Below, piece after piece: positions 1-14,968 of a stretch of DNA of 64,000 nucleotides. Each line of letters begins with the position of its first letter. Position 1 is the first letter of the stretch. The position numbers and the translations under genes are program-made. Origin of the DNA: Acidobacteriota bacterium (lineage in GTDB: Bacteria; Acidobacteriota; Terriglobia; 20CM-2-55-15); assembly GCA_022821145.1 (NCBI GenBank), contig JAJEEE010000051.1, positions 1 through 64,000 on the forward strand, written 5' to 3'. The notes under the pieces are model-generated. The model saw nothing but the letters and a program-made list of their open reading frames with translations, was not told the origin of the DNA and ran no database searches.

Positions 1-393
1 GACCACGTCTCGGTCGTTGACCGCCTTCAACAACGCGTCGAGCTTCTCGATCGTCGGCGTGGAATCGCCCCGTTCGTACCGGGCGTGGGCGTTGCGTGAC
101 TTCGCCCCCAACCGCGCGGCGACATCGTTCAGCGAGAGTCCGCTCCGCTGCCGGCATCGTTTCAGGAGCAGCCCGACCATTCTTCGCAGGTCATTCGCGC
201 TCACCTCGAAATCGCCGCGCCGGCCGGCGTGCACCTCGACCTGAAAGCCGTCGACATGCACCATCGTTTCAAACCAGTCTCGGATCATGTTCAAAGCGTC
301 GTTCTTCGTCCGCCCCTCGGTCATGGCGTCGAAAAGCGGGACCTCCGCCAGCCAGACACTCGCGTCCTTGTAGATCGTTCCCTGGAATCTCAT
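1..393 (-). CDS. HicB-type antitoxin with C-terminal XRE helix-turn-helix, partial
   Basis: Reading leftward from an ATG at 393 the frame is open for 131 codons to the window edge, so the 3-prime end is missing. Residues 1-60 look like a HicB-like fold: a strand motif around FQGTIYKD, then WLAEVPLFDAMTEG and a helix with DALNMIRDWFETMV. From about residue 70 an XRE/Cro-type helix-turn-helix follows (RSGLSLNDVAARLGAKSRNAHARYERG). HicB antitoxins neutralise the HicA RNase toxin and use the DNA-binding part for autoregulation. No HicA-like frame is seen immediately upstream (394-525), so a partner, if any, would be off the left edge. Confidence 0.75.
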   Translation of the reverse strand, partial: MRFQGTIYKDASVWLAEVPLFDAMTEGRTKNDALNMIRDWFETMVHVDGFQVEVHAGRRGDFEVSANDLRRMVGLLLKRCRQRSGLSLNDVAARLGAKSRNAHARYERGDSTPTIEKLDALLKAVNDRDVV

Positions 394-525
394 CGGTTGG
401 TCCCCCGCCGTGCATGTTCCGGTTCGCGCTGCTTCACACGGGAAGCGTACACAAATACGTGGACATTGCGCGGACCGCGATCTGTTGGACAATGTGTGAA
501 TCAAAGCGAAACCGGCGTGCCCGCG

Positions 526-1269
526 ATGTCAGTGAACGACTACGAACCAACGCCCGACGCCCGTACTGAAGAGGAGCGTGCAGTGCGCCAGACGGACGCA
601 TTCGGCGTGAGCGATGTCGTTGCCGGCTACGAGCGCCATGGAGCCGGGCTCGTCGACGCATACGAGCGCCTGTCATTCGAGGACGTGCACGCGAAGGTTC
701 TCGACCTTCTGCCCGAAGCCGCCGGCCGCGTGCTCGACGTCGGCGCCGGCAGCGGGCGCGAAGCCGCGTGGTTCGCCGCTCGTGGGCACGAGGTGGTTGC
801 TGTCGAGCCGTCGGCCGTGATGCGGGACGCGGCTCGGGCGCGGCACGCGTCCCCCCGGATTCGATGGGTTGACGACCGTCTTCCTGCGCTCGACAAGGTG
901 CGTTGGGCCAAGCAGGCTTTCGACTTGGTTTGGGTGAGCGCGGTCTGGATGCATGTGCCGCGCAGCGAGCGGTTCCGGTGCTTCGGCCGGCTGGCGTCCG
1001 TTGTCCGTCCCGGCGGCGGCATGATGGTCAGCCTGCGTCACGGTCCGCCGCCTCCTGGGCGGCCGATGGAGCCGGCGACGGCCGCCGAGATCGAGACGCT
1101 CGCGCGGCGGCATGGGCTTCGGACCGTTCGCGTCGGAAGGTACGCCGACGCCGCCGGGCGGCCCGGCGTTTCGTGGGAAGTCGTCTGGTTGGGATTCCCG
1201 AGTGAGGCGCGGTCGGTTTCGCGCGTTCCGGCGGCGACGAGATACCGGAGAAGTCGACGGCCTGGCTAA
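526..1269 (+). CDS. class I SAM-dependent methyltransferase
   Basis: A 247-aa protein of the Rossmann-fold methyltransferase class. The glycine-rich SAM motif I, VLDVGAGSG, ends at residue 77, and the acidic ribose-binding residue is E94 in VVAVEP. A later strand (FDLVWVSAVWMHV) matches motif IV, and GRLASVVRPGGGMMVSL is the usual post-motif helix-turn. The ATG at 526 is preferred because residues upstream of it are low-complexity and the fold begins after it. The ribosome-binding site is weak. The substrate cannot be told from sequence. It ends 3 nt past the convergent restriction endonuclease stop, so the two genes overlap tail to tail. Confidence 0.8.
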   Translation: MSVNDYEPTPDARTEEERAVRQTDAFGVSDVVAGYERHGAGLVDAYERLSFEDVHAKVLDLLPEAAGRVLDVGAGSGREAAWFAARGHEVVAVEPSAVMRDAARARHASPRIRWVDDRLPALDKVRWAKQAFDLVWVSAVWMHVPRSERFRCFGRLASVVRPGGGMMVSLRHGPPPPGRPMEPATAAEIETLARRHGLRTVRVGRYADAAGRPGVSWEVVWLGFPSEARSVSRVPAATRYRRSRRPG

Positions 1270-2297
1270 CGTGAGCGAAACGCCTTCAATCGGGTGTGGT
1301 GCACCAATTGCGACATGTCCTGCAGCGTAAAGACCTTGCCGCGGGTGGCAAGAAGCAGTTTCTTCATGTCTTCGCGGCGAACGCCGAACCCGCGTCCGGC
1401 GATGCAGGCGATCACCTCGAATCTCGGCCGTCCGGGCAACTGGGCGTCCATGCTGATTGCCCCGAGATGCTGGATGCGGGTCACCTTGTCGCGCGCTGTA
1501 CCGTCGTCCTCCGTGAGCTTCGCTTCGATCACGACCTGAGGGTTGGACTCGTTCGGAACGACGAAGTCCGGCGCTTGGTCGAAGCCGTGCAGACGTTCGG
1601 CCCGGCCCATTTTGCGATAGCTGACGCCGGCCGACGACAGCGTGCCTTCGATGGCGTTATCGACGACGTTGCCGATCAGTTCGCTGATGGAGTCACGATG
1701 GCCGGCGAACGGCCGGCCGAGGAGGCGCTCATAGAGAAGAACGGAGTACGGAACGCCGAATTCCGCCGCCGACTGAACGCTCACCAGTCCCCCCGTCGTG
1801 TCGGCCTTCTCGAGTCGATGAACGGTGTCGTGAGACTGCGCGGGAACACCGGAATCGAGAGCGTGGCAGGCGGCGGCGATAAGTGCCCGGATGCGCCGTT
1901 CGGTCACACCGCCCTTCTTGGGTAGAGCGGCCTCCGGGGCCATGCGGATATTTCGGTCGATCGTGCGGGCCGAACTTTGCGTGACCTCGACTCCCGTGTG
2001 CCGGGTCGCGTAGTAGGCCAGTTCGGGCGGCGTGAACCCGAGCAGGCAGCGCAGGACGATGAGTGCGATCGGCGTTTCGAAAACGGCGCGAGCGACGGTT
2101 TCGGGCGTGACGTTGCGAAACCCTTCGGTGGCCTGCTTCAGCGCCTCGTACCCCTTCTCGAACACCGGGAAATCGACGAAGCCCTCGCCCTTCGGCATCA
2201 CGAGGAACTCCGACTCGAGGCGTCCGAACACGCCGTCGACGTGAGAATCGAGATCGGATCGAAGGGTTTCGAAATCGACCTCAAAAGGGAACGGCAC
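1266..2297 (-). CDS. PD-(D/E)XK restriction endonuclease-like protein
   Basis: A 343-aa protein whose C-terminal third carries a PD-(D/E)XK nuclease core: P243-D244 in APDF, then E258-A-K260 in VVIEAKLTEDD. Downstream are strands FEVIACIAGRGFG and a helix with REDMKKLLLATRG. The N-terminal 230 residues are helical and I do not recognise them. They would be expected to carry target recognition. The start is GTG at 2297, inside the 3-prime end of the methylase gene (17-nt overlap), with AAGGA upstream, so translation is likely coupled. Context and motif together support a type II-like restriction enzyme. The recognition site is unknown. This frame is intact although the methylase partner has an in-frame stop. 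Confidence 0.7.
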   Translation of the reverse strand: MPFPFEVDFETLRSDLDSHVDGVFGRLESEFLVMPKGEGFVDFPVFEKGYEALKQATEGFRNVTPETVARAVFETPIALIVLRCLLGFTPPELAYYATRHTGVEVTQSSARTIDRNIRMAPEAALPKKGGVTERRIRALIAAACHALDSGVPAQSHDTVHRLEKADTTGGLVSVQSAAEFGVPYSVLLYERLLGRPFAGHRDSISELIGNVVDNAIEGTLSSAGVSYRKMGRAERLHGFDQAPDFVVPNESNPQVVIEAKLTEDDGTARDKVTRIQHLGAISMDAQLPGRPRFEVIACIAGRGFGVRREDMKKLLLATRGKVFTLQDMSQLVHHTRLKAFRSR

Positions 2298-4473
2298 AGT
2301 AGATTCCTTCCTCCAGCGTGTCCGCGTTCTGACTGAACAGCGGCGAGTCGCCGCCCGGATCCGGCGCCGTTGTCGACCGCGCGATCTCGTCGGGATCGCC
2401 GAACTCGGTCATCCTTCGACGGAATTCCGCTAACTTCTCCGTTGTCGGCAACGCGCCGTCCCAGGTCGATCGCAGATTCCAGACGGCCATCCGGGTCAGA
2501 TGACCGAAGACGATGCATCGTATGTCGCCGTGGGTGGCCCGCCGGCCCGCCGCGGAGAGTTTCTCCAGATCGGCGTTCACCGTCTCAATCAGTCGTTCGC
2601 GCGAATCGAACAGCCATGCCTTGTCCGTCTCGCCCGCGTCGCGGCAAACGAAGACGGTATCGACGATCGAGGACCCCGTGCCGTGAATATGGATCGAGCC
2701 GCCCATCTCGGCGGGACACGGCAGCGATGCCGAACAGGCCAGCCCGGAATCCAGGATCGCGACGCCGACAGCGCAATAGGCGTCGAGCTTGTTGTGATGG
2801 TAGGTGAAAACCAGCGGTGCGCCGGGTTTCAGCGCCCGCGCCATGCGGACATAGACCTTCGATAGCCCCTCGGCGAATTGCTCCAGGCCGCGCGACTGGC
2901 TGAAGTTGCCGGTCAGTTCCGCCGGTGACCGCGTGGACGGACGGTCGAAGCCGTCGGCGTTCTCCCCGGCGAGGCGGCGGAGCCAAACGTAGCAGAAGTC
3001 CATCAATTCGGCGTATTGCACGTTGCCGAAGTAGGGAGGATCGGTGAACACCGCATCCAGACTGTCCGCGGCCAGTTCGACCTCGGCCGCGTCCGTGCAA
3101 TGGACGACGGCGCGGCGGAGAGCGCCGTTGAGGCGTTCTCCGATTCGTTCGCCTTCGATTGGGACGCGGATCCTGCGTGAGTGCGCGTCGCGGACTTCGT
3201 AGGGCGTCTCGCAATAGCGTTTTGCTCGGACGTACTTGTCGACGATGTTCATCCACCCGCCCGATCCGACGTTGGTTCCGGCGCCGTTGACGATCCCCAG
3301 AATGTTGGACTCGCATTGCACGAGGCTCACGGGAAACCCGTGGACGGAGAAGATGTCCAACGCCTTCAGCGCCGTCGCGTCGTAGCGGCACAACATGTTC
3401 TGATAACGCAACAGGTCGGAGAGATTGGTTGCGAGCGCGCGCCGGATTCGCTCGTCCTTCGTGTCGGCGATGAGCCGGCAGCTCAGTTCCAGTCCGAGAA
3501 GCTGACGTGGGTTGAACATCTCGCGGTAGTGGGAATAGCCCCATCGGTGCAGGCGGGCCGTTTCGTCGCCATCGGGGATGCGTTCTTCCGGCACGAAACG
3601 CGCGCTCGTCCGCCGCCATCGCTCCGTCGCCGACGCCACGCGGGCCAGATCCTCGGCGTCGGGCTTCTTGAAGAAACGGCCCTTGTGTCCGGCCTTGCGT
3701 TGGGGGTTGTAGTACTCGATCGCGACAAGCCGGTGCGCCGGTGGACGGGCGGCCTCGCCGGGATAGGCGTTGGCGTGGCCGCAATGCGGACAATCGCATC
3801 GGCCGCGGTGAGCCGGCCCGCGCTGGAGCAGCGTCGTCCCGCAGGCCGTGCAGCCACCGAAATTCTCGTGGCGTTCGACTTCGTTGAGTTCGCCGCATCC
3901 CGGACAGATCAAAACATGCAGCGGGTGCCGCCGGTTCTCCGCGAGCAAGTATCCGGGAAAAAGGTCGACGGGTTGGCCGCAGGCCTCGCATTCGAGCACC
4001 TTGATCCAGAGAAAGGACTTCACGGGGACGTCCACGTCGCCGTAGAGCGGGCACGTCGTGCGGTAGTAACGGTCGATCTCGGAACGAAGCGCGCCCACTA
4101 AGTCGTGCGCGGCCTCTTGGTAGGCCTCGATGTCCAAATGGCCGACCACCTCGCGGACAATCCATGCGGACATCGGATTGACGTCGAACCCCTCCACGTC
4201 GCACCCGACGCGATTCGCCTCGATGATGGGCGTGCCTCCGCCCATGAACGGATCTACGATTCGGAGTCCGGGCAAACTGTGCGGCCGGTAGAACGCTAAC
4301 GGCAGGCGTTCCTCGGAGAACTCGGAAAGGATGAGGCCGCGAAAGAGCGTCCCCGGCCGCCGGGCGAACCACTTGTGGACACCGATGTTGGGACGTTAGT
4401 TCTGCTGGATCTGCTTCTCCCGAAGCGCGGCTCGCGCGATGAACGGAACGTCAAAACGCCGCTCGATGCTCAT
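2281..4473 (-). pseudogene. DNA methyltransferase (DUF1156-like, zinc-ribbon insert) with in-frame TAA at codon 26
   Basis: From an ATG at 4473 the frame encodes MSIERRFDVPFIARAALREK, and then codon 26 (4398-4396) is TAA. The same frame resumes without a gap into RPNIGVHKWFARRPG and stays open for about 700 codons. Residues in full-length numbering: HKWFARRP at 33-40, SAM motif DPFMGGGT at 74-81, catalytic DPPY at 478-481 (TDPPYFGN). Four CxxC pairs (CEAC, CPGC, CTAC, CPHC) at about 130-210 form zinc ribbons. DPPY is typical of N6-adenine or N4-cytosine methylases. The HKW-ARRP element plus ribbons resembles DUF1156-type enzymes. Only a TTG at 4275 offers re-initiation before motif I, and it would lose HKWFARRP. 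It may be a broken gene, a readthrough case or a sequence error. Confidence 0.75.
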
Positions 4474-4617
4474 CGTGGAGTCGGTCCAGTGGAGGAATCG
4501 TCCGGGGTCGATTTGGGCCGGGCGGGTTCGGAACGTCCTCGGCAGCCGGCCATAGACGCAGGATAATTCAGCACGACACCGCGGGCAATGCCCAGGTTCG
4601 CGGCGACCGCTCCGCCT

Positions 4618-5118
4618 TCAATCGCTCTTGTACTCGATCAGCTCGAACGTGTTGCCCGAGTTGTCCCGTACGAAAAAGAAGATCGCGCCCGGGTTGTCCA
4701 CCGGGCCCATGACGATCTCGGCGCCCTTCGATCGAAGGATCTCCAGCGCCGCCATGGCGTCTTCCACCTGGTAGGCGAAGTGCGCGGTGCCGTGGACGCG
4801 GAGGTCGGCCGACGGGTCGCGCCGGTACTCGGGCAGCGGCGCGGCGTCCGGGATCTCGAACAGCTCGATGAAGGCGCCGCCCCGGCCCAGCAGCGCGATC
4901 GCGCTTTGGCCTTCTGCCTCGCGCTCGCGCATGCGCAGGACCTCGAAGCCGAGCATCTCCCGGTACCACGCGACGGACGCTTCCAGGTCGGGGACGGATA
5001 TCCCGATGTGGTGCGGCGTGATCTCGAACCCGGGGTCGCCGGCCTGCGGGAACGCCGCTGTCGGCGCGGATGCGAGAACGGCGAGCGCGGCTCCGATCGC
5101 GATGGTGCGCCCGTGCAT
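4618..5118 (-). CDS. exported VOC (glyoxalase/bleomycin-resistance fold) protein
   Basis: 166 aa. Residues 1-25 are a signal peptide (MHGRTIAIGAALAVLASAPTA, cleavage near AFPQA). The remainder is one vicinal-oxygen-chelate domain: HHIGISVPDLEASVAWYREMLGF supplies the first metal-ligand histidine, GTAHFAYQVEDAMAALEIL the second, and FELIEYKSD the terminal glutamate. The family includes dioxygenases, glyoxalases and binding proteins, so the reaction is not predictable. Export to the periplasm is unusual for the family but fits the many exported enzymes here. It is transcribed away from the haem-protein operon starting at 5251. Confidence 0.8.
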   Translation of the reverse strand: MHGRTIAIGAALAVLASAPTAAFPQAGDPGFEITPHHIGISVPDLEASVAWYREMLGFEVLRMREREAEGQSAIALLGRGGAFIELFEIPDAAPLPEYRRDPSADLRVHGTAHFAYQVEDAMAALEILRSKGAEIVMGPVDNPGAIFFFVRDNSGNTFELIEYKSD

Positions 5119-5250
5119 TGGGAACCCTCCTCGTCGATGTCAAGTTCAACCAGAACAGAGTCTTGCATTAACCTTGCGCGCGCGCCAGTCTCTGAATAGA
5201 CTCGGTAGGAGTTTTCGGTGGGACGGGTGCGTCCCGGCGGGTATGGCTCG

Positions 5251-7698
5251 ATGAAAAATCGCTCGGTGACGATCGGATTCGCGGGAGCCGGCATGCTTCT
5301 GTGCGTGGCCGTTGCCGGCCATGGTCCGGCCGCGGCCCTCGGCGCCGTGCAGACCGGCGCGGCGGCAATCGACGCGCATCGAGAGCTGATCGACCAGTAC
5401 TGCATGGGCTGCCACAGCGACGCGGCGCGGTCCGGCGGGCTGGCGCTGTCGGAGTTGAACCTGGACGCGGTGGCGGAGAATCCCGAGGTTGCCGAGACGG
5501 TCATTCGCAAGCTGCGCGGCGGTCTGATGCCGCCGGCCGGCGCGCGGCGTCCCGACAACGAGTCCACGGCGGCGCTCGTCGCATGGCTGGAGCGCGAGAT
5601 CGACACGGCCGTCGGGGATCCGGAGCCCGGCCGCGTGGCCCTGCGGCGACTCAACCGCCGGGAGTACGGCTACGCCATACGCGACCTGCTCGGGCTGAAC
5701 GTCGACGCGGAGGCATGGCTGCCCGTCGACAATGTCGAGGGTCACTTCGACAACAACGCGGACGCGCTGCAGGTGTCGCCCGCCTTCATCGACCAGTACA
5801 TCGACGCCGCGCGCGCCATCGCGCTCGAAGCGGTCGGCAACCTCGAGGCGCCTCCCGTCACCACAACGTACGGCGACGTCGCCAACATGGTGATCTCGCT
5901 GCCGCCGCGGGGCGCTCCGGGCACCGGGCGCCAGCAGCATCACGTCGAAGGGATGCCTTTCGGCACGCGCGGTGGATTCATCGTCGAGCACAACTTCCCG
6001 GCCGACGGCGAGTACGAGCTCACGATCGGCGACATGGCGCTTGCGCGCGAAGTCCCGCGGATGGAGTTCGAGAATACGGTGATCGTGTTGCTGGACGGAG
6101 CGGAGATCTACCGTACGAACATCGGCGGCGAGCCCGACCACAAGGCGATCGACCAGTTGCTGGATCCGGCGGTCGAGGAGGTCAACGGGCGGCTTCGGAA
6201 GATCCGCTTCCAGGCGGCGGCGGGGCAGCATCGGCTGGCGGTCACGTTCCAGCATCGAAGCTTCGCCGAGAGCGACGAGCGCACGCGCACGTCCGCGCTC
6301 GAAGGCGGCCAGGAGCGCATCCAGGCCGTGCACGCGCTCCAGATCCGGGGGCCGCTCTCGGTCACCGGCATCGGCGATTCGGCGAGCCGACAGAAGATAT
6401 TCATCTGCCGTCCCGCATCGGCCGTCGAGGAGGAACCCTGCGCGCGCCGGATCCTCGCGAACCTCGCCGAGCGCGCTTTCCGCCGCCCCGTGACCGGCGA
6501 GGATCTCGATCCGCTGATGGCGTTCTACCGGGCTGGACATGAGCGTGACGGTTTCGAGCGCGGCGTGCGCGATGCGTTGAGCGCCATCCTGGCGAGCCCG
6601 CACTTCCTGTACCGTCCGGAATCCGGAGCCGAGGTCGGCGCCGTCGCGCTGGACGACCTGGAACTCGCCTCGCGCCTGTCCTTCTTCCTGTGGAGCAGCC
6701 TGCCCGACGCCGAGCTCCTGGACCTTGCGCGCCGGGGGCGCCTCAACGATCCCGACGCGTTGGCCCTTCAGGTGCGCCGGATGCTGGTGGACGAGCGGGC
6801 CCTGTCGCTGGTGGACGACTTCGCGTTCCAGTGGCTCGACCTTGCCAAGCTGGACGAGATCGTTCCCGACCGGGGCCGATTCCCGCACGCCAGCGGCCTG
6901 CTCGATACGCGCGATCTGCTGAGGCAGGAGCTGCGGCTGTTCGTCGACAGCGTCTTCGGTGAGGGCCGCAGCCTCGTCGAGTTGATGACGGCGGACTACA
7001 CCTTCCTGAACGAGCGCCTGGCGATGCACTACGGCATCGAGACCGTCAAGGGCGCCCGTTTCCGCCGGGTCATGCTGGAGGAGGACGCGCGCCGCGGCCT
7101 GTTGGGGAAGGGCGCCGTGTTGACGTTGACGGCCTACCCCAACCGCACGTCGCCGGTCCTGCGGGGTGCATGGATCCTGGAACGGCTGCTGGGCGCGCCG
7201 CCGCCGGAGCCGCCCGCGAACGTCCCGGAACTCGGTGAGAACGGGCGCGGCCAGCCGGCGCGAACGCTGCGCGAGAGACTCGAGCAGCACAGCGCGAACC
7301 CGGCGTGTTTCGCGTGTCACGGCATCATGGACCCGTTGGGGATGGCGTTGGAGAATTTCAACGCCGTGGGCCAGTTCCGGACGCACGACCCCGAGACCCG
7401 GACTCCGATCGACACCGCGGGCGTTCTGCCCGACGGCGCGCCGATCGGCGGGCCCGCCGAACTCCGGCAAGCGCTCATTGCCCGGCCGGATCGTTTCGTT
7501 CAGGCGTTCACCGAAAACCTGTTGACGTTTGCGTTGGGGCGCAGCCTGGACTATCGCGACATGCCCACGGTGCGCGCGGTCGTCCGGCGCGCGGAGGCGG
7601 ACGATTACCGCTTCGAGTCCATCGTGACGGCCGTCGTTTCGAGCGACGCGTTCCGGAGGCGCGAGGGATGGAGTCCCAACGCGGTTTCCGCCGAGTAG
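5251..7698 (+). CDS. exported multidomain haem protein (DUF1587/DUF1595/DUF1592/DUF1588/DUF1585)
   Basis: 815 aa with an N-terminal signal peptide. A c-type haem motif CMGCH lies at residues 51-55 and is followed by RGGLMPPAGARRPD, a Planctomycete-type cytochrome segment. Next come DUF1587-like (RRLNRREYGYAIRDLLGLN), DUF1595, and DUF1592-like (ILASPHFLYRPE, ASRLSFFLWSSLPDAELL) regions. DUF1588 follows (TANRTSPVLRG-type region at NRTSPVLRGAWILERLLG, with a second CFACH at 686-690 and GIMDPLGMALENF). The C terminus is DUF1585. ATG at 5251 is chosen because a signal peptide starts there, and a GTG at 5218 would add an unlikely charged leader. It is almost always paired with a DUF1552 protein, which follows after 24 nt. 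The biochemical role is unknown, and a periplasmic electron-transfer function is inferred from the haem motifs. Confidence 0.9.
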   Translation: MKNRSVTIGFAGAGMLLCVAVAGHGPAAALGAVQTGAAAIDAHRELIDQYCMGCHSDAARSGGLALSELNLDAVAENPEVAETVIRKLRGGLMPPAGARRPDNESTAALVAWLEREIDTAVGDPEPGRVALRRLNRREYGYAIRDLLGLNVDAEAWLPVDNVEGHFDNNADALQVSPAFIDQYIDAARAIALEAVGNLEAPPVTTTYGDVANMVISLPPRGAPGTGRQQHHVEGMPFGTRGGFIVEHNFPADGEYELTIGDMALAREVPRMEFENTVIVLLDGAEIYRTNIGGEPDHKAIDQLLDPAVEEVNGRLRKIRFQAAAGQHRLAVTFQHRSFAESDERTRTSALEGGQERIQAVHALQIRGPLSVTGIGDSASRQKIFICRPASAVEEEPCARRILANLAERAFRRPVTGEDLDPLMAFYRAGHERDGFERGVRDALSAILASPHFLYRPESGAEVGAVALDDLELASRLSFFLWSSLPDAELLDLARRGRLNDPDALALQVRRMLVDERALSLVDDFAFQWLDLAKLDEIVPDRGRFPHASGLLDTRDLLRQELRLFVDSVFGEGRSLVELMTADYTFLNERLAMHYGIETVKGARFRRVMLEEDARRGLLGKGAVLTLTAYPNRTSPVLRGAWILERLLGAPPPEPPANVPELGENGRGQPARTLRERLEQHSANPACFACHGIMDPLGMALENFNAVGQFRTHDPETRTPIDTAGVLPDGAPIGGPAELRQALIARPDRFVQAFTENLLTFALGRSLDYRDMPTVRAVVRRAEADDYRFESIVTAVVSSDAFRRREGWSPNAVSAE

Positions 7699-7722
7699 AT
7701 TGACGACTGGAGGAATCTCGTC

Positions 7723-9006
7723 ATGTACCTGACCCGAAAGCATCTGTCACGGCGCACGGTCCTGAAGGGAGCCGGCGTGTCGATCGCGCTGCCGTTGCTG
7801 GACGCCATGATTCCCGCGCGCACCGCGCTGGCGCAGACCGCGGCCGCGCCCAGCCCGCGCGTGGGTTTCGTCTACTTCCCGCACGGCGCCCTTCAGGACG
7901 AGTGGGAGCCCGCGGCCGCCGGCCGGGACTTCGAATTTCCGTTCATCCTGGAACCGCTGGAGCCGATGCGCGAGCACGTGACCGTGGTCAGCGGCCTGCG
8001 CAACAAGGGCGGGGAAAGCGCCAGCCCGCATGGCATCATCCAGGAGACGTGGCTGAACTGCGTCAGCCCGCGCCGGCGTAGCAACGAGACCGGCGTCGGG
8101 GTGACCGCGGACCAGATCGCGGCGCGACACCTGGGAGCGGACACGCCGCTGCCGTCGCTGGAGTTGTGCGGCGAGCCGGGCGGCATGATCTCGTTCCGGA
8201 CGCCGGAGCAGCCTTTGCCCATGGAAGGCAATCCGCGCAGGGTGTTCTACACGATGTTCGGGCAGGGTGACACGCAGCAGGAGCGCGAGGCGATTCTCAA
8301 CACGACGAGCAGCCTGCTCGACTACGTGAGGGAGTCCACCGCCAGCCTGAACCGACGGCTCGACGCCGGCGACCGGGCGAAGGTGAGCGACTACCTCGAT
8401 TCGGTCCGCGAGATCGAGGTCCGCGTCCAGCGTCTGGCCGACAGCGCCGAATCGATGGGCGAGTTGCCGGACGCCCCGATCGGGCCGCCGGAGGACTTCG
8501 GCGAGCTGCTCGACCTTCAGTTCGAAATGATCGCGTTGGCCTGGCAGACGAACCGGACGAACGTGGCCTCGATCAAGATGGTCGAGGAAGCCAGCATGCG
8601 GACCTACCCGAACCTGGGCGTCCACGAAGCGTTCCACCCCACCTCCCACTGGGGCGGATACCCGGAACGCGTGGCCAACCTGAGGCTCATCCAGAACTAC
8701 CACACCGCGGTGTTCGCCAAGTTCGCCCAGCGGCTCAAGGACACGCCCGACGGCGACGGCTCGATCCTGGACCACGCGATCGTCCTGTTCGGCAGCAACA
8801 TGGCCAACAGCGACGCCCACAACAACGACCCGCTCCCGCAGGTCCTCGTGGGACGCGGCGGCGGCATACGCGGCGGCCAGCACCTGCGGTATCCGCAGGA
8901 TTCGCCGCACGCCAACATCCTGGTGACGATGCTGGAGCGCGTGGGCGTGCCCGCGGAGGAACTGGAGAACTTTGCCGACAGCACCGGGCCTTTGAGCGAG
9001 GCATGA
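7723..9006 (+). CDS. Tat-exported DUF1552 protein
   Basis: 427 aa. The N terminus holds a twin-arginine signal (SRRTVLKGAGVSIALPLLDAM) with cleavage after about residue 38 (ALAQ). The body matches DUF1552: VGFVYFPHGALQDEWEP, PHGIIQETWLNC, TAIDQIAA-type VTADQIAARHLG, and a C-terminal ILDHAIVLFGSNMANSDAHNNDPLPQVLVG segment with HLRYPQDSPHANI. The latter has the look of the sulfatase/DUF1501 alkaline-phosphatase-like fold. It is the constant partner of the preceding DUF1592 haem protein. Tat export suggests a folded, perhaps cofactor- or metal-bearing, periplasmic protein. Its function is not established. Confidence 0.9.
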   Translation: MYLTRKHLSRRTVLKGAGVSIALPLLDAMIPARTALAQTAAAPSPRVGFVYFPHGALQDEWEPAAAGRDFEFPFILEPLEPMREHVTVVSGLRNKGGESASPHGIIQETWLNCVSPRRRSNETGVGVTADQIAARHLGADTPLPSLELCGEPGGMISFRTPEQPLPMEGNPRRVFYTMFGQGDTQQEREAILNTTSSLLDYVRESTASLNRRLDAGDRAKVSDYLDSVREIEVRVQRLADSAESMGELPDAPIGPPEDFGELLDLQFEMIALAWQTNRTNVASIKMVEEASMRTYPNLGVHEAFHPTSHWGGYPERVANLRLIQNYHTAVFAKFAQRLKDTPDGDGSILDHAIVLFGSNMANSDAHNNDPLPQVLVGRGGGIRGGQHLRYPQDSPHANILVTMLERVGVPAEELENFADSTGPLSEA

Positions 9007-10517
9007 TGACGAGACGCACCGCCATCGCCGCCGTCTGCGCCGCCGCCGCGGCCTTCGGCGCCCCCGTGGCGCATGCACAAGCTCCGGAGATCGACCGCCG
9101 GTACGCCGACGGCAGCACGCCCTTGCAGTGGGCGGTCTTCGAGGGAAACGCCGCCGAGGTCGCGCGCTTGCTGGACGCCGGCGCCGATGCGTCCCTCGCC
9201 AACAACTACGGCGCCTCGCCGATGGGGCTGGCCGCCGAGGTGGCCGACACCGCGATACTCCGCCTGCTGCTGGACGCCGGCGCCGACCCCGACTCGCCCA
9301 ATCCCGAGGGACAGACCGCCTTGATGGCCGTGGCCCGAACCGGCAACGTGGAGGCGGCGCGGTTGTTGATCGACCGCGGCGCGACTGTGGATGCGCGGGA
9401 GGGCTGGGGCGGACAGACCGCGCTGATGTGGGCGTCCGCGCGGCGGCATCCGGAGATGATGGTGTTCCTGATCGCCCACGGCGCCGACGTCGACGCGCGC
9501 TCGATCCATCGCGACTATCAGCGCCACGTGACGGCCGAAGGGCGTCCGAAGAACATGGACAGCGGCGGCTTCACGCCGCTGCTGTACGCCGCGCGCGAGA
9601 ACTGCCGGGCCTGCGTCGACGTGCTGCTCGAGAGCGGCGCGGACATCGACCTGCCCGACCCCGACGGCGTGTCGCCGCTGCACGTCGCGATCATGAACGC
9701 GAACTGGGACCTCGCGAAGCGGTTGATCGAGGCCGGCGCCGACGTCAACCAGTGGGACATGTACGGCGAATCGCCGCTGTTCACCGCCGTCGGCCTCTAT
9801 ACGCGGACCGACGGGGGACGCGCGTCGATCGACCCGTTGAACGCGACCGACGGCCTGACGATCGTCAGGATGCTGCTCGACGGCGGCGCCAACCCGAACA
9901 TGCAGCTCTTCTTCCGTCCGTCCAACGTGCGGGGCTCGACCAACACGCGGGGCTCAACGCCCCTGATCCGCGCGGCCACCAACGGCGATCTCGACATGGT
10001 CCAACTGCTTCTGGAGAACGGCGCGGACGCCACGGTCTACATGGCCGACCGCCAGACCCCGATTCACGCGGTGCTGGCGGGCCGGTCCTCGGAGCCGCAG
10101 GCGCTGGAGCTGATCCGGATCCTTCACGACGCCGGCGCCGACGTCAACGTCGTCGCGCTGGTGAACCACCGGGAGGAGGTCCGGGGCGGCACGGCGCTGC
10201 ACTACGCCGTACGGAAACGCTACCCGGACGTCATCCGCGAGCTCGCCGCCTTCGGCATCGACATGGACGCCCGCGACCAGGACGGCCTGACGGCGCTCGA
10301 CTACACGCAGTCCCGCGGCTTCATGCCGTTCATGGCCCTGCAGACGCCTCACTACGCGGAAGAGGAGGCGCTCCTGCGCGAGTTGGGCGCGACCGCGGAG
10401 ATGGCCGAGGATCCCGTGTGGCCGGTGTTGGGCCCGCCCCAGGGCGTCTGGGCGGACATCTGGCCCGTGGGCGAGGCGCGCGTCCACGATCCGGTCTACA
10501 CGCACGCGTCCGACTGA
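9003..10517 (+). CDS. exported ankyrin-repeat protein
   Basis: 504 aa, starting at an ATG that overlaps the DUF1552 stop by 4 nt (ATGA), so the three genes form one operon. A signal peptide (MMTRRTAIAAVCAAAAAFGA, cut near AHAQA) is followed by at least nine ankyrin repeats. They are seen as recurring GSTPLQWAVFEGNAAEVARLLDAG, GQTALMAVARTGNVEAARLL, GVSPLHVAIMNANWDLAKRL and GGTALHYAVRKRYPDVIREL units (each unit about 33 residues). Ankyrin stacks bind proteins and have no catalytic role of their own. In this operon it may scaffold the DUF1592/DUF1552 proteins in the periplasm, which is inference from linkage. Confidence 0.88.
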   Translation: MMTRRTAIAAVCAAAAAFGAPVAHAQAPEIDRRYADGSTPLQWAVFEGNAAEVARLLDAGADASLANNYGASPMGLAAEVADTAILRLLLDAGADPDSPNPEGQTALMAVARTGNVEAARLLIDRGATVDAREGWGGQTALMWASARRHPEMMVFLIAHGADVDARSIHRDYQRHVTAEGRPKNMDSGGFTPLLYAARENCRACVDVLLESGADIDLPDPDGVSPLHVAIMNANWDLAKRLIEAGADVNQWDMYGESPLFTAVGLYTRTDGGRASIDPLNATDGLTIVRMLLDGGANPNMQLFFRPSNVRGSTNTRGSTPLIRAATNGDLDMVQLLLENGADATVYMADRQTPIHAVLAGRSSEPQALELIRILHDAGADVNVVALVNHREEVRGGTALHYAVRKRYPDVIRELAAFGIDMDARDQDGLTALDYTQSRGFMPFMALQTPHYAEEEALLRELGATAEMAEDPVWPVLGPPQGVWADIWPVGEARVHDPVYTHASD

Positions 10518-10545
10518 GATCCCGCTCGACGTCGAGGCCGCGCGG

Positions 10546-11430
10546 CTACTCCAGCCCGCAGGCGCGGGCCTGTTCCCGGGCCAGCACGGCCTGGTCGCGG
10601 TCGCCGTCGCCGTGCGCGATGGCGCCGAGCAGGCGTTCGCGGTAGACGTCCAGGCTCGGCAGCGGCGCCCGCGCCAGGTCGGCGGCGGCCAGTATCAGGT
10701 TGGCGTCCTTGATCCCGACCCACACCGGCGAGCCCACGTTGTCGAACGTGCCCTCGACCATCGTCTTGCCGTAACCCGAGTACGCCGGCGCGCCCGAGAA
10801 CAGGCCGTCCGTCATGGTGTCGTAGAGGACCCGGGGATCCACGCCGTATTTCCGCACCAGGGAGAACGCTTCGCCTTGAGCGACGATCGCCGCCCCCAGC
10901 GCGAGATTGTTGGCCAGCTTGATCGCGGTGGCCGTCTCCGGCTTCGACCCCGCCTCGAAGACCCGGCGGCCCAACCACTCGAGCACCGGGCGCGCGCGCT
11001 CGACCGCGTCGGGCGGGCCTCCGGCGACGACCCCCAGCTTGCCCGCGGCGGCGAGGTCGGGCCGGCCCAGCACCGGCGCGGCGACGAGCGCCTGTCCGGC
11101 CTTGGCGTGGGCGTCCTCCAGCGTCCGTATGGCCCCGACGCCGTACGTTCCCATGGCCAGGTGGACGCTTCCCGCGGGAAGCGAATCGCACAGTCCGCCG
11201 TCGCCGCAGGCGACCTCGACGACCGACCGGTCCTCGACCAGCATGGTCGCCACCGCCTCGCGGCCGTCGCACAGCTCCGCCACCGACGACGCCACGCGCG
11301 CTCCGGCGGCGCCGAGCTCCGCGGCCGCTTCGGGCACGATGTCGTACACCGTCAGGTCGTGGCCGCCTTCCAGGACACGCCGCGCCATTCCCCTGCCCAT
11401 ACGGCCCAGACCGATGAAACCGACCTTCAT
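10546..11430 (-). CDS. NAD(P)-dependent beta-hydroxyacid dehydrogenase (3-hydroxyisobutyrate dehydrogenase family)
   Basis: 294 aa. The N terminus MKVGFIGLGRMGRGMARR is the dinucleotide-binding GxGxxG loop. DLTVYDIVPEAAAEL supplies the acidic or adenosine-selecting strand. The substrate-binding region APVLGRPDLAAAGKLGVVAGG and the catalytic-lysine helix IKLANNLALGAAIVAQGEAF are both present, followed by the helical C-terminal domain. ATG at 11430 is chosen because it starts exactly at the Rossmann strand. The family reduces or oxidises 3-hydroxyisobutyrate, tartronate semialdehyde, glyoxylate or succinic semialdehyde. The substrate here is not assignable. It converges on the ankyrin gene with a 28-nt gap. 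Confidence 0.85.
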   Translation of the reverse strand: MKVGFIGLGRMGRGMARRVLEGGHDLTVYDIVPEAAAELGAAGARVASSVAELCDGREAVATMLVEDRSVVEVACGDGGLCDSLPAGSVHLAMGTYGVGAIRTLEDAHAKAGQALVAAPVLGRPDLAAAGKLGVVAGGPPDAVERARPVLEWLGRRVFEAGSKPETATAIKLANNLALGAAIVAQGEAFSLVRKYGVDPRVLYDTMTDGLFSGAPAYSGYGKTMVEGTFDNVGSPVWVGIKDANLILAAADLARAPLPSLDVYRERLLGAIAHGDGDRDQAVLAREQARACGLE

Positions 11431-11587
11431 GCGCGCACTCCTTCCGCAATTGGGGCTGAAACGAGCGAACACTATAGCACCGGCGCGAGCACCCGGAGTC
11501 GAGCCCGGGGGCGTTCCGGCGATCACGCCGGCGTCAAGTCCGGCGCGGTGTGATACGTTTCACTTTCGAGCGGTAGGCCGCTTCACG

Positions 11588-12529
11588 ATGCGATCGACAG
11601 GCACTCCAACGACTGCGGACCGGCTTTCGAGGCGCGGCTTTCTGGGCGCGGGCGCGGCCGCGCTGGGCGCGCCCCTGGCGTCCGCCTTCGCCTCCGGTTC
11701 GCGCCAGGCCGCTCGGCTGACATCCACGGACCTCGGGGGCGTCACGCTCATCCAGGGCGCCGGCTGCAACGTGGTCGCGATGGCGGGCCCGGACGGCGCG
11801 CTGATGATCGACGGGGGGCTTGCCGAGAACGCGGACGCCTTGCTGGACGCGGTCCGGGACGCCACGGGAAACAGCCGCGTCCACACGCTGATCAACACGC
11901 ACTGGCATCCCGAGCACACCGGCGCCAACGAGGCCGTCGGCCGCGACGGCGGCGTGATCATCGCCCACGAGACCACGCGGATGTACGTCAGCAACGCGGT
12001 CTATTCGGTGACCTTCGAGGGCCGCCTGGCGCCGCTGCCGCAAGTGGCCCGGCCGAACCGGACGACGCGCGCGGCGGACTCGCTGGAGTTCGCCGGCCAG
12101 CGCGTCGACTACGAACACCTGCCCTCGGCGCACACGGACGGGGACCTCTACGTGCGTTTCCCCTCGCTGAACGTTCTGGCCGCCGGCGGCGTGGTTTCGG
12201 GCGAGGCGTGGCCCATCCTGGACTACCGGAACGGCGCTTGGTACGGCGGCCGCGTGCGCGCCCTCGAACGGCTGGCCGAGATGGTCGACGTCGACACGCG
12301 CGTGGCGCCCGCCCACGGCCGCCCGATCACCGGCGCCGACATCGTGCGCCACCGCGATATCTACCAGGAACTCTTCCTGACGATGATCGACTACATGAAC
12401 CTGGGCCTGGGCCCCGAAGACGTCGTGGAACGCAATCCGCTGTCGGAGTACGAGGCCGAGTTCGGCGACCCGTCGACGTTTCTCGACGGCGCATACCGCA
12501 GCATGCTGATCGCCTATGTCCCGGACTGA
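11588..12529 (+). CDS. Tat-exported metallo-beta-lactamase-fold hydrolase with HxHxEH motif
   Basis: 313 aa. A twin-arginine signal (SRRGFLGAGAAALGAPLASA, R15-R16) precedes an MBL fold. Metal motif: H105-W-H107-P-E109-H110, where the family norm is HxHxDH, so the metal-2 aspartate is replaced by glutamate. Later ligands are in HLPSAHTDGD and PAHGRPI. ATG at 11588 is the first start giving a complete Tat signal. Related proteins sit near PQQ enzymes or act as exported lactonase/phosphodiesterase-type hydrolases. The actual substrate is unknown. It is divergent from the dehydrogenase at 11430, with a 157-nt shared promoter region. Confidence 0.82.
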   Translation: MRSTGTPTTADRLSRRGFLGAGAAALGAPLASAFASGSRQAARLTSTDLGGVTLIQGAGCNVVAMAGPDGALMIDGGLAENADALLDAVRDATGNSRVHTLINTHWHPEHTGANEAVGRDGGVIIAHETTRMYVSNAVYSVTFEGRLAPLPQVARPNRTTRAADSLEFAGQRVDYEHLPSAHTDGDLYVRFPSLNVLAAGGVVSGEAWPILDYRNGAWYGGRVRALERLAEMVDVDTRVAPAHGRPITGADIVRHRDIYQELFLTMIDYMNLGLGPEDVVERNPLSEYEAEFGDPSTFLDGAYRSMLIAYVPD

Positions 12530-12540
12530 GGCGGGCGTCC

Positions 12541-13041
12541 ATGCAGAAGGACAGCGTGGTGACCATCGTTTCCGCCCTCAACCGGCGTGGCGTGCGTTAC
12601 CTGATCGTCGGCGGGCTCGCGGCCGTCGCCCACGGAAGCGTTCGCTTCACGGCTGACGTGGACGTCATGCTGGCATGGGACGAGCCGAACGTGCGGCGGG
12701 CCATCGCGGCGTTGACCGCGCTGGGTTACCGTCCTCGCGCACCCGTGAAGTTCGAGGCCTTGCTGGATCGATCGGAGCGTGAGCGCTGGGCGCGCGAAAG
12801 GAACATGACAGTGTTCTCGCTTTACTCCGACGCGCACCGCCTGACCGAGATCGATTTCCTGCTGGACGCTCCGATCGAGTTCGAGCACGCGTGGGCGCGG
12901 TCGGTTCGAAAGCCGGTTGCGCCCGGTGTGGAGGCCCCGTTCTGCGGTGTCGACGACTTGATCGAATTGAAATCGGGAACCGGCCGCGCCCGGGACCGCG
13001 ACGATGTCGAGCGGCTGAAGCGGTTGACCGAGGATTCGTGA
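12541..13041 (+). CDS. MNT/AbiEii-type nucleotidyltransferase
   Basis: 166 aa. The Pol-beta nucleotidyltransferase signature is clear: G24-G25 in YLIVGGLAAVAHG followed by D39-V-D41 in FTADVDVMLAW, with the third acidic strand in LTEIDFLLD. Such stand-alone enzymes often act as toxins or as antitoxin modifiers (MNT/HEPN, AbiEii) by transferring nucleotides to RNA or protein. It starts 11 nt after the metallo-hydrolase stop and its own TGA overlaps the next gene by 1 nt (TGATG). A two-gene toxin-antitoxin-like unit is therefore likely. Which component is toxic cannot be told from sequence. Confidence 0.78.
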   Translation: MQKDSVVTIVSALNRRGVRYLIVGGLAAVAHGSVRFTADVDVMLAWDEPNVRRAIAALTALGYRPRAPVKFEALLDRSERERWARERNMTVFSLYSDAHRLTEIDFLLDAPIEFEHAWARSVRKPVAPGVEAPFCGVDDLIELKSGTGRARDRDDVERLKRLTEDS

Positions 13042-13226
13042 TGGTCGAGGTCGGAGTCCGGGAGTGGGAGTCGGGGTGGGAAGGCCATGAACGGCTTCAG
13101 ATGCGGCGTTTTGCCGCGCTTCCGATGCCCGAGAAACTGGAGTGGCTCGAAGAAACGCAACGCATGGTGTTGACGCTCCACGCCGAGAACGGGAATCCAG
13201 CCCACTCGGACGTCAAGCTAGAATAG
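13041..13226 (+). CDS. 61-aa partner protein of the nucleotidyltransferase
   Basis: A 61-aa acidic helical protein (WESGWEGHERLQMRRFAALP, then a helix MPEKLEWLEETQRMV). The ATG overlaps the nucleotidyltransferase stop by one base, which indicates translational coupling. Small WEGH..Q.RR....P..EKL.WLEE-type proteins are, from memory, frequent companions of MNT-like nucleotidyltransferases, which suggests an antitoxin or adaptor role. I cannot name a family with certainty. Confidence 0.6.
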   Translation: MVEVGVREWESGWEGHERLQMRRFAALPMPEKLEWLEETQRMVLTLHAENGNPAHSDVKLE

Positions 13227-13254
13227 TCACGATCGCCGCGAAGATGAGTCGAGG

Positions 13255-13410
13255 ATGAAGGACAGGAACAACGTCACGGCGCAAAGTAAGGTTCGCGTCG
13301 ACCCGGTTGCCATCGACGATTCCTTCTGGGATCTGCCGGCGCCTTCCGTGCCTTTCGAGGTATTGATGAAAGCCGTCGAGCAGGAACGCAGTGAGGATCC
13401 GGACGTTTAG
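13255..13410 (+). CDS. small hypothetical protein (51 aa)
   Basis: An ATG at 13255 with GAGG just upstream opens 51 codons ending in TAG. The product is acidic, with the central stretch DDSFWDLPAPSVPFEVLMKAVE and no signal peptide. It lies between the nucleotidyltransferase pair and the rhomboid gene, 28 nt after the first and 6 nt before the second, so it may be co-transcribed. The shape (short, Trp/Pro-containing, helical tail) resembles small antitoxins, but no family is recognised. Confidence 0.4.
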   Translation: MKDRNNVTAQSKVRVDPVAIDDSFWDLPAPSVPFEVLMKAVEQERSEDPDV

Positions 13411-13416
13411 GCTCGC

Positions 13417-14190
13417 ATGTTCCCTATACGAGACGACAACCCGCGGGTCCTGACGCCGTACGCGACGTACGCGATCGCCATGTTGAACGTCGCGGTGTGG
13501 GTCCTGATTCAGGGGATGGGGACCGAGCCGGCGCTGTCGGCGTCGGTATGCCGGCTCGGCCTGATTCCGGGCGACCTGCTCGGCACGGTCCCGGCGGGCA
13601 CGAGCTTCCGGATCGGCTTCGACACCTCGTGCGTCCTGGGCGGAAGCTCGAGCTGGTATACCACGGTCACGTCGATGTTCATGCACGGGGGATGGTTCCA
13701 CCTCATCGGCAACATGTGGTTCCTCTGGATCTTCGGCGACAACGTGGAGAGCTCGATGGGGCACCTCCGCTTCGTGGTCTTCTACCTGCTGTCGGGTTTT
13801 GCCGCCGCCGCGCTGCAAGTGGCGACGAATCCGGAATCGGCGATTCCGATGGTAGGGGCGTCAGGCGCCATCGGCGGCGTCATGGGCGCCTACATCATCC
13901 TGTATCCGCGGGTCCACGTGCACATGCTCATCCCGCTCGGCTTCTTCATCACGACGATCGCCGTCCCCGCGTTCCTGATGCTGGGCTACTGGCTGCTGGT
14001 CCAGCTCGTCAGCGGCGTCGGAACGATCGGCATGGAGGGCGGCGGCGTGGCGTTCTGGGCGCACGTCGGGGGGTTCGTCGCCGGCGCCGTCATGGTCTTC
14101 GGGTTCCGCAAGAGGCGCCTGCTCGAACGCCACCCCTACCACGGCTGGCGCCGCCGCTCGCCCACCCGAAGCTGGCACAGCGTGCGGTAG
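13417..14190 (+). CDS. rhomboid-family intramembrane serine protease
   Basis: 257 aa with six or so membrane segments. The catalytic serine is S149 in GASGAIGG and the paired histidine is H216 in AHVGGF, the rhomboid dyad. The loop MFMHGGWFHLIGNMWFLWIFGDNVE (quoted in part: HGGWFHLIGNMWFL) is the conserved L1/TM2 rhomboid signature. A periplasmic loop of about 45 residues separates TM1 and TM2. The C terminus is basic and cytoplasmic. The family cleaves single-span membrane proteins near their membrane segment. The substrates here are unknown. Confidence 0.92.
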   Translation: MFPIRDDNPRVLTPYATYAIAMLNVAVWVLIQGMGTEPALSASVCRLGLIPGDLLGTVPAGTSFRIGFDTSCVLGGSSSWYTTVTSMFMHGGWFHLIGNMWFLWIFGDNVESSMGHLRFVVFYLLSGFAAAALQVATNPESAIPMVGASGAIGGVMGAYIILYPRVHVHMLIPLGFFITTIAVPAFLMLGYWLLVQLVSGVGTIGMEGGGVAFWAHVGGFVAGAVMVFGFRKRRLLERHPYHGWRRRSPTRSWHSVR

Positions 14191-14226
14191 GGGCCCGGGG
14201 CCGGACGTCGTCACGACGATATGACC

Positions 14227-14646
14227 TCACGGCGTTTCCCATGGATCGACGACGCTGACGTCCAGGCGTTCGAAATCCTTGACGTTGCGGGTCGCCACGG
14301 CCAGATCGTGGGTCTTCGCCGTGCCCGCGATCAGCGCGTCGCCCAAATCCAGCGGACGTCCGAAACCGTGCGCCTGTGACCGAAAACGGGCGGCCCACTC
14401 GGCCCCGACCCTCTCCAGCGGAAGAATGCGATCGTCGAATTCGCCGATAAGACCCCGCAGAGCCTCTTGAAGCTTGCGCCGCCGCCTTCCGTGCGGCATT
14501 CGACGCAATCCGCATTCGAGTTCATGAACGACGATCGACGACAGCCAGAGATCGTCGTGTTCGGTGAGGAATGCGATGACGCGCGCGTGGGGGTCGTGCC
14601 GCACGACCTCGGAGATCACGTTCGTGTCGAGGAGATAGCCCCTCAC
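14227..14646 (-). CDS. vapC: PIN-domain ribonuclease toxin VapC
   Basis: 139 aa, PIN fold. D7 in YLLDTNVISE is the first metal ligand, E in VVHELECGL the second, D in LDLGDALIAGTA the third, and ATRNVKDFERL the terminal conserved block. VapC toxins cleave tRNA or rRNA. The start is GTG at 14646, overlapping the VapB stop (GTGA), so toxin translation depends on antitoxin translation. All catalytic residues appear intact. Confidence 0.88.
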   Translation of the reverse strand: MRGYLLDTNVISEVVRHDPHARVIAFLTEHDDLWLSSIVVHELECGLRRMPHGRRRRKLQEALRGLIGEFDDRILPLERVGAEWAARFRSQAHGFGRPLDLGDALIAGTAKTHDLAVATRNVKDFERLDVSVVDPWETP

Positions 14647-14921
14647 GCGTCCGTTTCGTCAATGAACGGGATCTTTCGATTCGAACGGCGCTCCGGGAGT
14701 TCGAGATCGATGCCTCGCGGCATGTTCTCGACCAGCCATGAGCCCAGCCGTTGACGCGGTGTCTTGGCGTCCCACACGGCGGCGGGCACCACGACGAACG
14801 AACGGCGGGCGCCGATCCGTTGCGGCCCCTCTTCTTCGGCAAGCCTCAGGATTTCGGACAGTCGCGACTTCGCCTCGGCCACGGTCCAGGTGCGGTGGAG
14901 TTCGGAAGATTTGGCAGACAC
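14643..14921 (-). CDS. vapB: Phd/YefM-type antitoxin VapB
   Basis: 92 aa. The N-terminal TWTVAEAKSRLSEILRLAEEEGPQ segment is the Phd/YefM DNA-binding fold and FVVVPAAVW the strand after it. The C-terminal tail (SNRKIPFIDETDA) would wrap the VapC active site. I choose GTG at 14921 because GGAGG lies 4-8 nt upstream. A TTG at 14951 would lie inside the promoter palindrome and lack a ribosome-binding site. The antitoxin-toxin complex usually represses its own promoter through a palindrome such as the one at 14936-14968. Confidence 0.85.
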   Translation of the reverse strand: MSAKSSELHRTWTVAEAKSRLSEILRLAEEEGPQRIGARRSFVVVPAAVWDAKTPRQRLGSWLVENMPRGIDLELPERRSNRKIPFIDETDA

Positions 14922-14935
14922 GCTCCCTCCAGTGG

Positions 14936-14968
14936 AGCCATTATAGTCCAATATGGACTATAATGGCT
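14936..14968. promoter_or_regulatory. 33-bp perfect palindrome with two outward -10 boxes (vapBC / hicB-like divergent promoter-operator)
   Basis: Arms of 15 nt (AGCCATTATAGTCCA) are separated by ATA and are perfectly complementary. Each arm contains a TATAAT on the outward strand: 14958-14963 on the plus strand and 14945-14940 on the minus strand. It therefore looks like one symmetric operator covering the -10 regions of both divergent genes. A VapBC complex bound here would shut off both transcription units. Confidence 0.8.

Follow-up and report, generated by a model that had tools for sequence, protein, structure and literature searches.

How can a cell keep an intact putative restriction nuclease beside a methylase gene that is closed by a stop codon near its start? 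The question is raised by two overlapping genes in a 64,000-nucleotide stretch of DNA (the window) from an Acidobacteriota bacterium (Table 1). The first-pass annotation had offered three answers: that the methylase is made by readthrough or by re-initiation at a TTG codon, that the nuclease is silent, or that the stop is a sequence error. All three are sound as options; the results below favor two of the readings, an operon that was inactivated recently and whose nuclease is silent, or an error in the consensus, and they speak against readthrough and re-initiation.

Table 1. Coordinates of the features discussed, in window positions.
Feature	Position	Strand	Remark
Cassette segment	1200..4609		Sister species (G001) lacks it, with 77 bp at the same site
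Gene for the PD-(D/E)XK nuclease, 343 aa, starting with GTG at 2297	1266..2297	-	Open frame; D244, E258 and K260 present
Gene for the DNA methyltransferase, 730 codons with a stop at codon 26	2281..4473	-	Profiles and motifs
Shine-Dalgarno-like sequence GGAGGAAGGA upstream of the nuclease GTG	2300..2325	-	Read from sequence
TTG, first in-frame restart after the stop, residue 67	4273..4275	-	Without Shine-Dalgarno sequence; unconserved
In-frame TAA, methylase codon 26	4396..4398	- (TTA on +)	Tyr in 43/43 close homologues retrieved

The methylase frame begins with an ATG at 4473 and ends with a stop at 2281-2283, and the TAA at 4396-4398 lies exactly where it had been annotated. Translation across it reads MSIERRFDVPFIARAALREKQIQQN, stop, RPNIGVHKWFARRPGTLFRG..., after which the frame stays open for 704 codons, from 4395 to 2281-2283; neither a second stop nor a frameshift was found along 4473 to 2281. 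The profile search returned matches to the D12/N6_N4 adenine methylases and, more weakly, to DUF1156-type defence methylases, so that by profile the enzyme is of the adenine-specific type. Its sequence includes the invariant block HKWFARRPGT, motif I (DPFMGGGTP), Zn-ribbon CxxC pairs and motif IV (TDPPY), with motifs I and IV invariant among 23 homologues. As had been claimed, HKWFARRPGT, DPFMGGGTP and TDPPY are all located downstream of the TAA. The fold search retrieved generic Rossmann methyltransferases only, with weak E-values, and the DNA methylases TTHA0409 and M.PvuII appeared within the first 50 rows.

Alignment of codon 26 to homologues, a check that the first-pass annotation had proposed, showed that the methylases begin at the same position (M/V-S-I-E) and have Tyr at this codon. 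The set of 43 consists of 27 loci spread over many phyla, 7 more genomes of the class and 9 viral or plasmid-like contigs, with some closely related strains among them. A change of one base turns the Tyr codons TAT and TAC into TAA. Judged from this alignment, the codon-26 stop is not a trait of the methylase family.

The partner nuclease had been described as intact and overlapping, and this was borne out: its frame is open from 2297 to 1266, it overlaps the 3' end of the methylase gene by 17 bp on the same strand, and its PD..EAK residues are conserved, with P243-D244-F245 and E258-A259-K260 invariant in a 31-member alignment. At a threshold of 0.001 the protein had no match in Pfam, in NCBIfam or in PADLOC, and its profile matched nothing among PDB sequences. 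In the predicted model (mean pLDDT 83, pTM 0.56), the PD motif strand is followed by the ExK strand, a helix and a further strand. The top Foldseek matches were BstEII, EcoT38I and BsoBI, and BstEII, BsoBI, PspGI and Bse634I ranked high with a second structural aligner, in both cases with modest scores. The invariant residues, the matching fold order and the structural matches together indicate that the protein is very likely a PD-(D/E)XK nuclease and, as far as the model goes, probably a restriction enzyme.

Both components of a two-gene type II restriction-modification (R-M) system were thus found: an adjacent methylase with AdoMet and catalytic motifs, its gene interrupted in this genome, and a linked PD-(D/E)XK endonuclease with catalytic residues (31 homologues, modest structural scores). 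As in type II systems, the two genes are adjacent and co-oriented, and the nuclease finds its best structural matches in BstEII, EcoT38I and BsoBI. Unlike in the named systems, the nuclease family has no name in the three collections searched, and the methylase is a long Zn-ribbon enzyme and distant kin of the DUF1156 types. It shares a core with these (PADLOC DUF1156_MTase, 4e-22; HmaB, 2e-21; the BREX-related PglXI, 4e-20) but is much shorter than the DUF1156-type defence methylases HmaB and PglXI, and its score for NCBIfam DUF1156_antiphage (NF042963), 100.6 bits, falls far short of the cut-off of 1000. Whereas DUF1156-type methylases are accompanied by helicase or phosphatase genes, this one is paired with a nuclease.

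At a strict cut-off and with this genome counted, 12 of 399 class genomes carried the methylase, and among 396 genomes of the phylum 9 carried the nuclease; the pair was found in none of the 10 other family members searched. Phage records searched for methylase relatives yielded distant Sulfolobus virus methylases only. By gene content and distribution, the cassette is a patchily distributed two-gene R-M-like unit, in which a Zn-ribbon methylase is followed by an overlapping PD-(D/E)XK nuclease.

Comparison of the window with the sister species G001 showed 98.9% identity to the right of the cassette, 80-83% to the left and 90-93% in another part. The stretch from 4610 to 14968, 10.4 kb at 98.9% identity to another species within the genus, likely reflects a recent recombination and ends where the cassette begins. 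The identity step coincides with this edge of the cassette, which suggests exchange by recombination. To the left of the cassette are genes for an HTH protein (1-504, minus strand) and a SAM-dependent methyltransferase (529-1266, plus strand), which are also found at the empty site of G001 with 80-83% identity. On the right, at 5218-9006, lie two paired genes that show a CMGCH site for haem binding and a twin-arginine-like signal, RRTVLKG; many copies related to this pair, at 64-68% DNA identity, are scattered across G001.

Dead genes gather changes at invariant sites. A leave-one-out decay test was carried out on 224 columns invariant across 22 other methylases, and the window methylase deviated in 2 of them, an average value in a family whose other members deviate in 0-11. 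This caps its neutral drift at about 1.2% per site with no background subtracted, compared with the ~7-10% by which a different part of the window diverges from the sister species (90-93% identity). The methylase/nuclease terminal-branch ratio of 1.96 falls inside the range of relatives, and the codon-position differences of the methylase look normal. Relaxed selection on the methylase was tested in three ways, and none was seen. Given the lack of further decay, the stop is either recent or not real.

Is the stop real? A one-base consensus or assembly error, with an intact methylase in the living organism, is a possible but clearly less probable account. Such an error would fit a lone base in an otherwise pristine methylase whose neighboring nuclease is intact, in an assembly that is a draft of 89 contigs, as would the fact that 228 different single-base changes in the methylase gene would create a stop; an intact methylase would also dissolve the biological puzzle at once. 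However, substitution errors in a covered consensus are in general rare, and no disabled frame was found among the ORFs of the neighboring 10 kb when compared with G001, which argues that the local sequence is not generally poor. A codon-usage scan for mid-gene stops over 347 kb of the genome produced ten candidates, all of them with the look of ordinary gene ends; since it missed the methylase stop itself, the scan is no measure of the error rate. Lesions similar to this one recur in the cassette family in unrelated assemblies, though these too could be errors.

Among the relatives, the nuclease gene carries single nonsense codons in L005 and L039, frameshifts in L020, L023 and L057 and a 5' deletion in L027, and the nuclease match in L024 stops at residue 193. 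The methylase has a frameshift near residue 448 in L045; in L135 (3001-5080), which lies on a viral or plasmid-like contig next to phage-like genes, TGA replaces Trp35 and the C-terminus is abnormal. In L033 the methylase is short by only about the last 8 residues. The TGA of L135 was considered as evidence of recoding and rejected; the normal C-terminus is missing, and we read this locus as a dead copy. Lesions among relatives number 7 in the nuclease versus 2 (L045 and L135) in the methylase, although the nuclease gene is half as long. With the window included, 7 of 10 lesions fall in the nuclease, which makes up 32% of the length (one-sided binomial, 0.015), an excess that is suggestive only, given that the sample is small, that some lesions are perhaps assembly errors and that most loci were found via the methylase. 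When the search was started from the nuclease, a methylase frame was adjacent in 8 of 8 relatives. Both the lesion excess and this adjacency fit a nuclease that is harmful on its own, so the first-pass assumption that the nuclease harms a cell lacking its methylase is plausible from these comparisons, and the window would be unusual but not isolated.

The preserved frame past the stop and the intact nuclease would also be expected if readthrough, a suppressor tRNA or a restart at TTG 4275 still yielded the methylase. The evidence on decoding is against this. No UUA anticodon was found among the 44 tRNA matches of the genome, prfA and prfB (RF1 and RF2) are both intact and above their family cut-offs, TAA is an ordinary gene terminator elsewhere in the genome, and a stop at codon 26 occurs in none of the 43 relatives. 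A suppressor tRNA and the loss of a release factor were rejected on these results, and the hallmarks of stop-codon recoding (a UAA-reading tRNA or altered release factors, and a UAA conserved in relatives) are lacking. Re-initiation at the TTG, named in the first-pass annotation as a source of methylase, is disfavored as well. The codon corresponds to Phe in most homologues, and a restart there would omit residues 1-66, which include the HKWFARRPGT block and which in the methylase model form helices preceding the first core strand (71-74), residues 21-40 being of low confidence; lying downstream of that block, it would not give back a full enzyme. Methylase production by readthrough or restart is unlikely, to the point that we give it hardly any weight. 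The codon-26 stop looks like a recent inactivating mutation of the ordinary kind, with a sequence error as the less likely alternative, and not like a new mode of protein synthesis.

The nuclease could also be active yet harmless, if another methylase protects the same sites or if only modified or foreign DNA is attacked. The genome does encode a second DUF1156-type methylase (G000 C73:57552-60494), in an Hma-like defence island; however, this protein is only 27-29% identical over parts to the cassette methylase, belongs to its own multi-gene island and gives no sign of shared specificity, and in relatives the nuclease adjoins its own methylase. We consider such protection very improbable. The island itself, separate from the cassette, spans C73:57552-65985 (L064:3553-11986, minus strand) and contains the HmaB-like DUF1156 methylase of 981 aa, a GmrSD/Schlafen protein, a HEC-01A/B pair and an HmaA/TmtA-like C-terminal protein.

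The account that we favor, and hold to be probable, is that a single nonsense substitution, which changed the codon of Tyr26 to TAA, has recently put the cassette out of action in this lineage. It is supported by the Tyr26 of the 43 loci, the absence of older decay, the recurrent lesions in relatives, the patchy presence of the cassette and the empty site in G001. A single substitution would have turned Tyr26 into TAA in a volatile R-M-like cassette, and termination after 25 residues would abolish the methylase. With so early a stop, about 2.1 kb of message ahead of the nuclease would also go untranslated, which favors transcriptional polarity. The survival of the cell would then mean that too little nuclease is made to be of use or, alternatively, that the nuclease depends on the methylase to work. 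Two points count against inactivation of the cassette by this route: a Shine-Dalgarno-like sequence of its own precedes the nuclease gene, whose silence is therefore uncertain, and the nuclease is the gene more often broken in relatives, which makes loss of the methylase first the less expected order. A promoter scan yielded nothing useful.

Both polarity and silencing have precedents in such operons. In the PvuII operon, a frameshift in the upstream overlapping gene cut the expression of a nuclease fusion via transcriptional polarity, and nearby stop codons had no effect on translation of the fusion (PMC2997769). Helicobacter pylori has a methylase/specificity pair that is intact yet silent, and a frameshift in the upstream gene is a possible cause (PMC3936762). 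The cassette resembles this system, Hpy99XX, in that one gene of the operon is interrupted while the partner is open and presumably silent, but the roles differ: in Hpy99XX the upstream endonuclease is broken and the methylase/specificity pair is silent (PMC3936762), whereas in the window the stop closes the upstream methylase gene and the nuclease frame is open.

A broader reading, that the nuclease of this R-M-like family is tolerated after loss of its own methylase, either as methylase dependent or as silenced by polarity, and that methylase loss would serve the family as a safe off-switch, is rather unlikely. If the base is real, the locus would be a natural knockout for asking how cells survive losing the protective half of a restriction pair. 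The analysis also outlines a widespread two-gene cassette, composed of a Zn-ribbon methylase and a PD-(D/E)XK nuclease that Pfam, NCBIfam and PADLOC leave unnamed.
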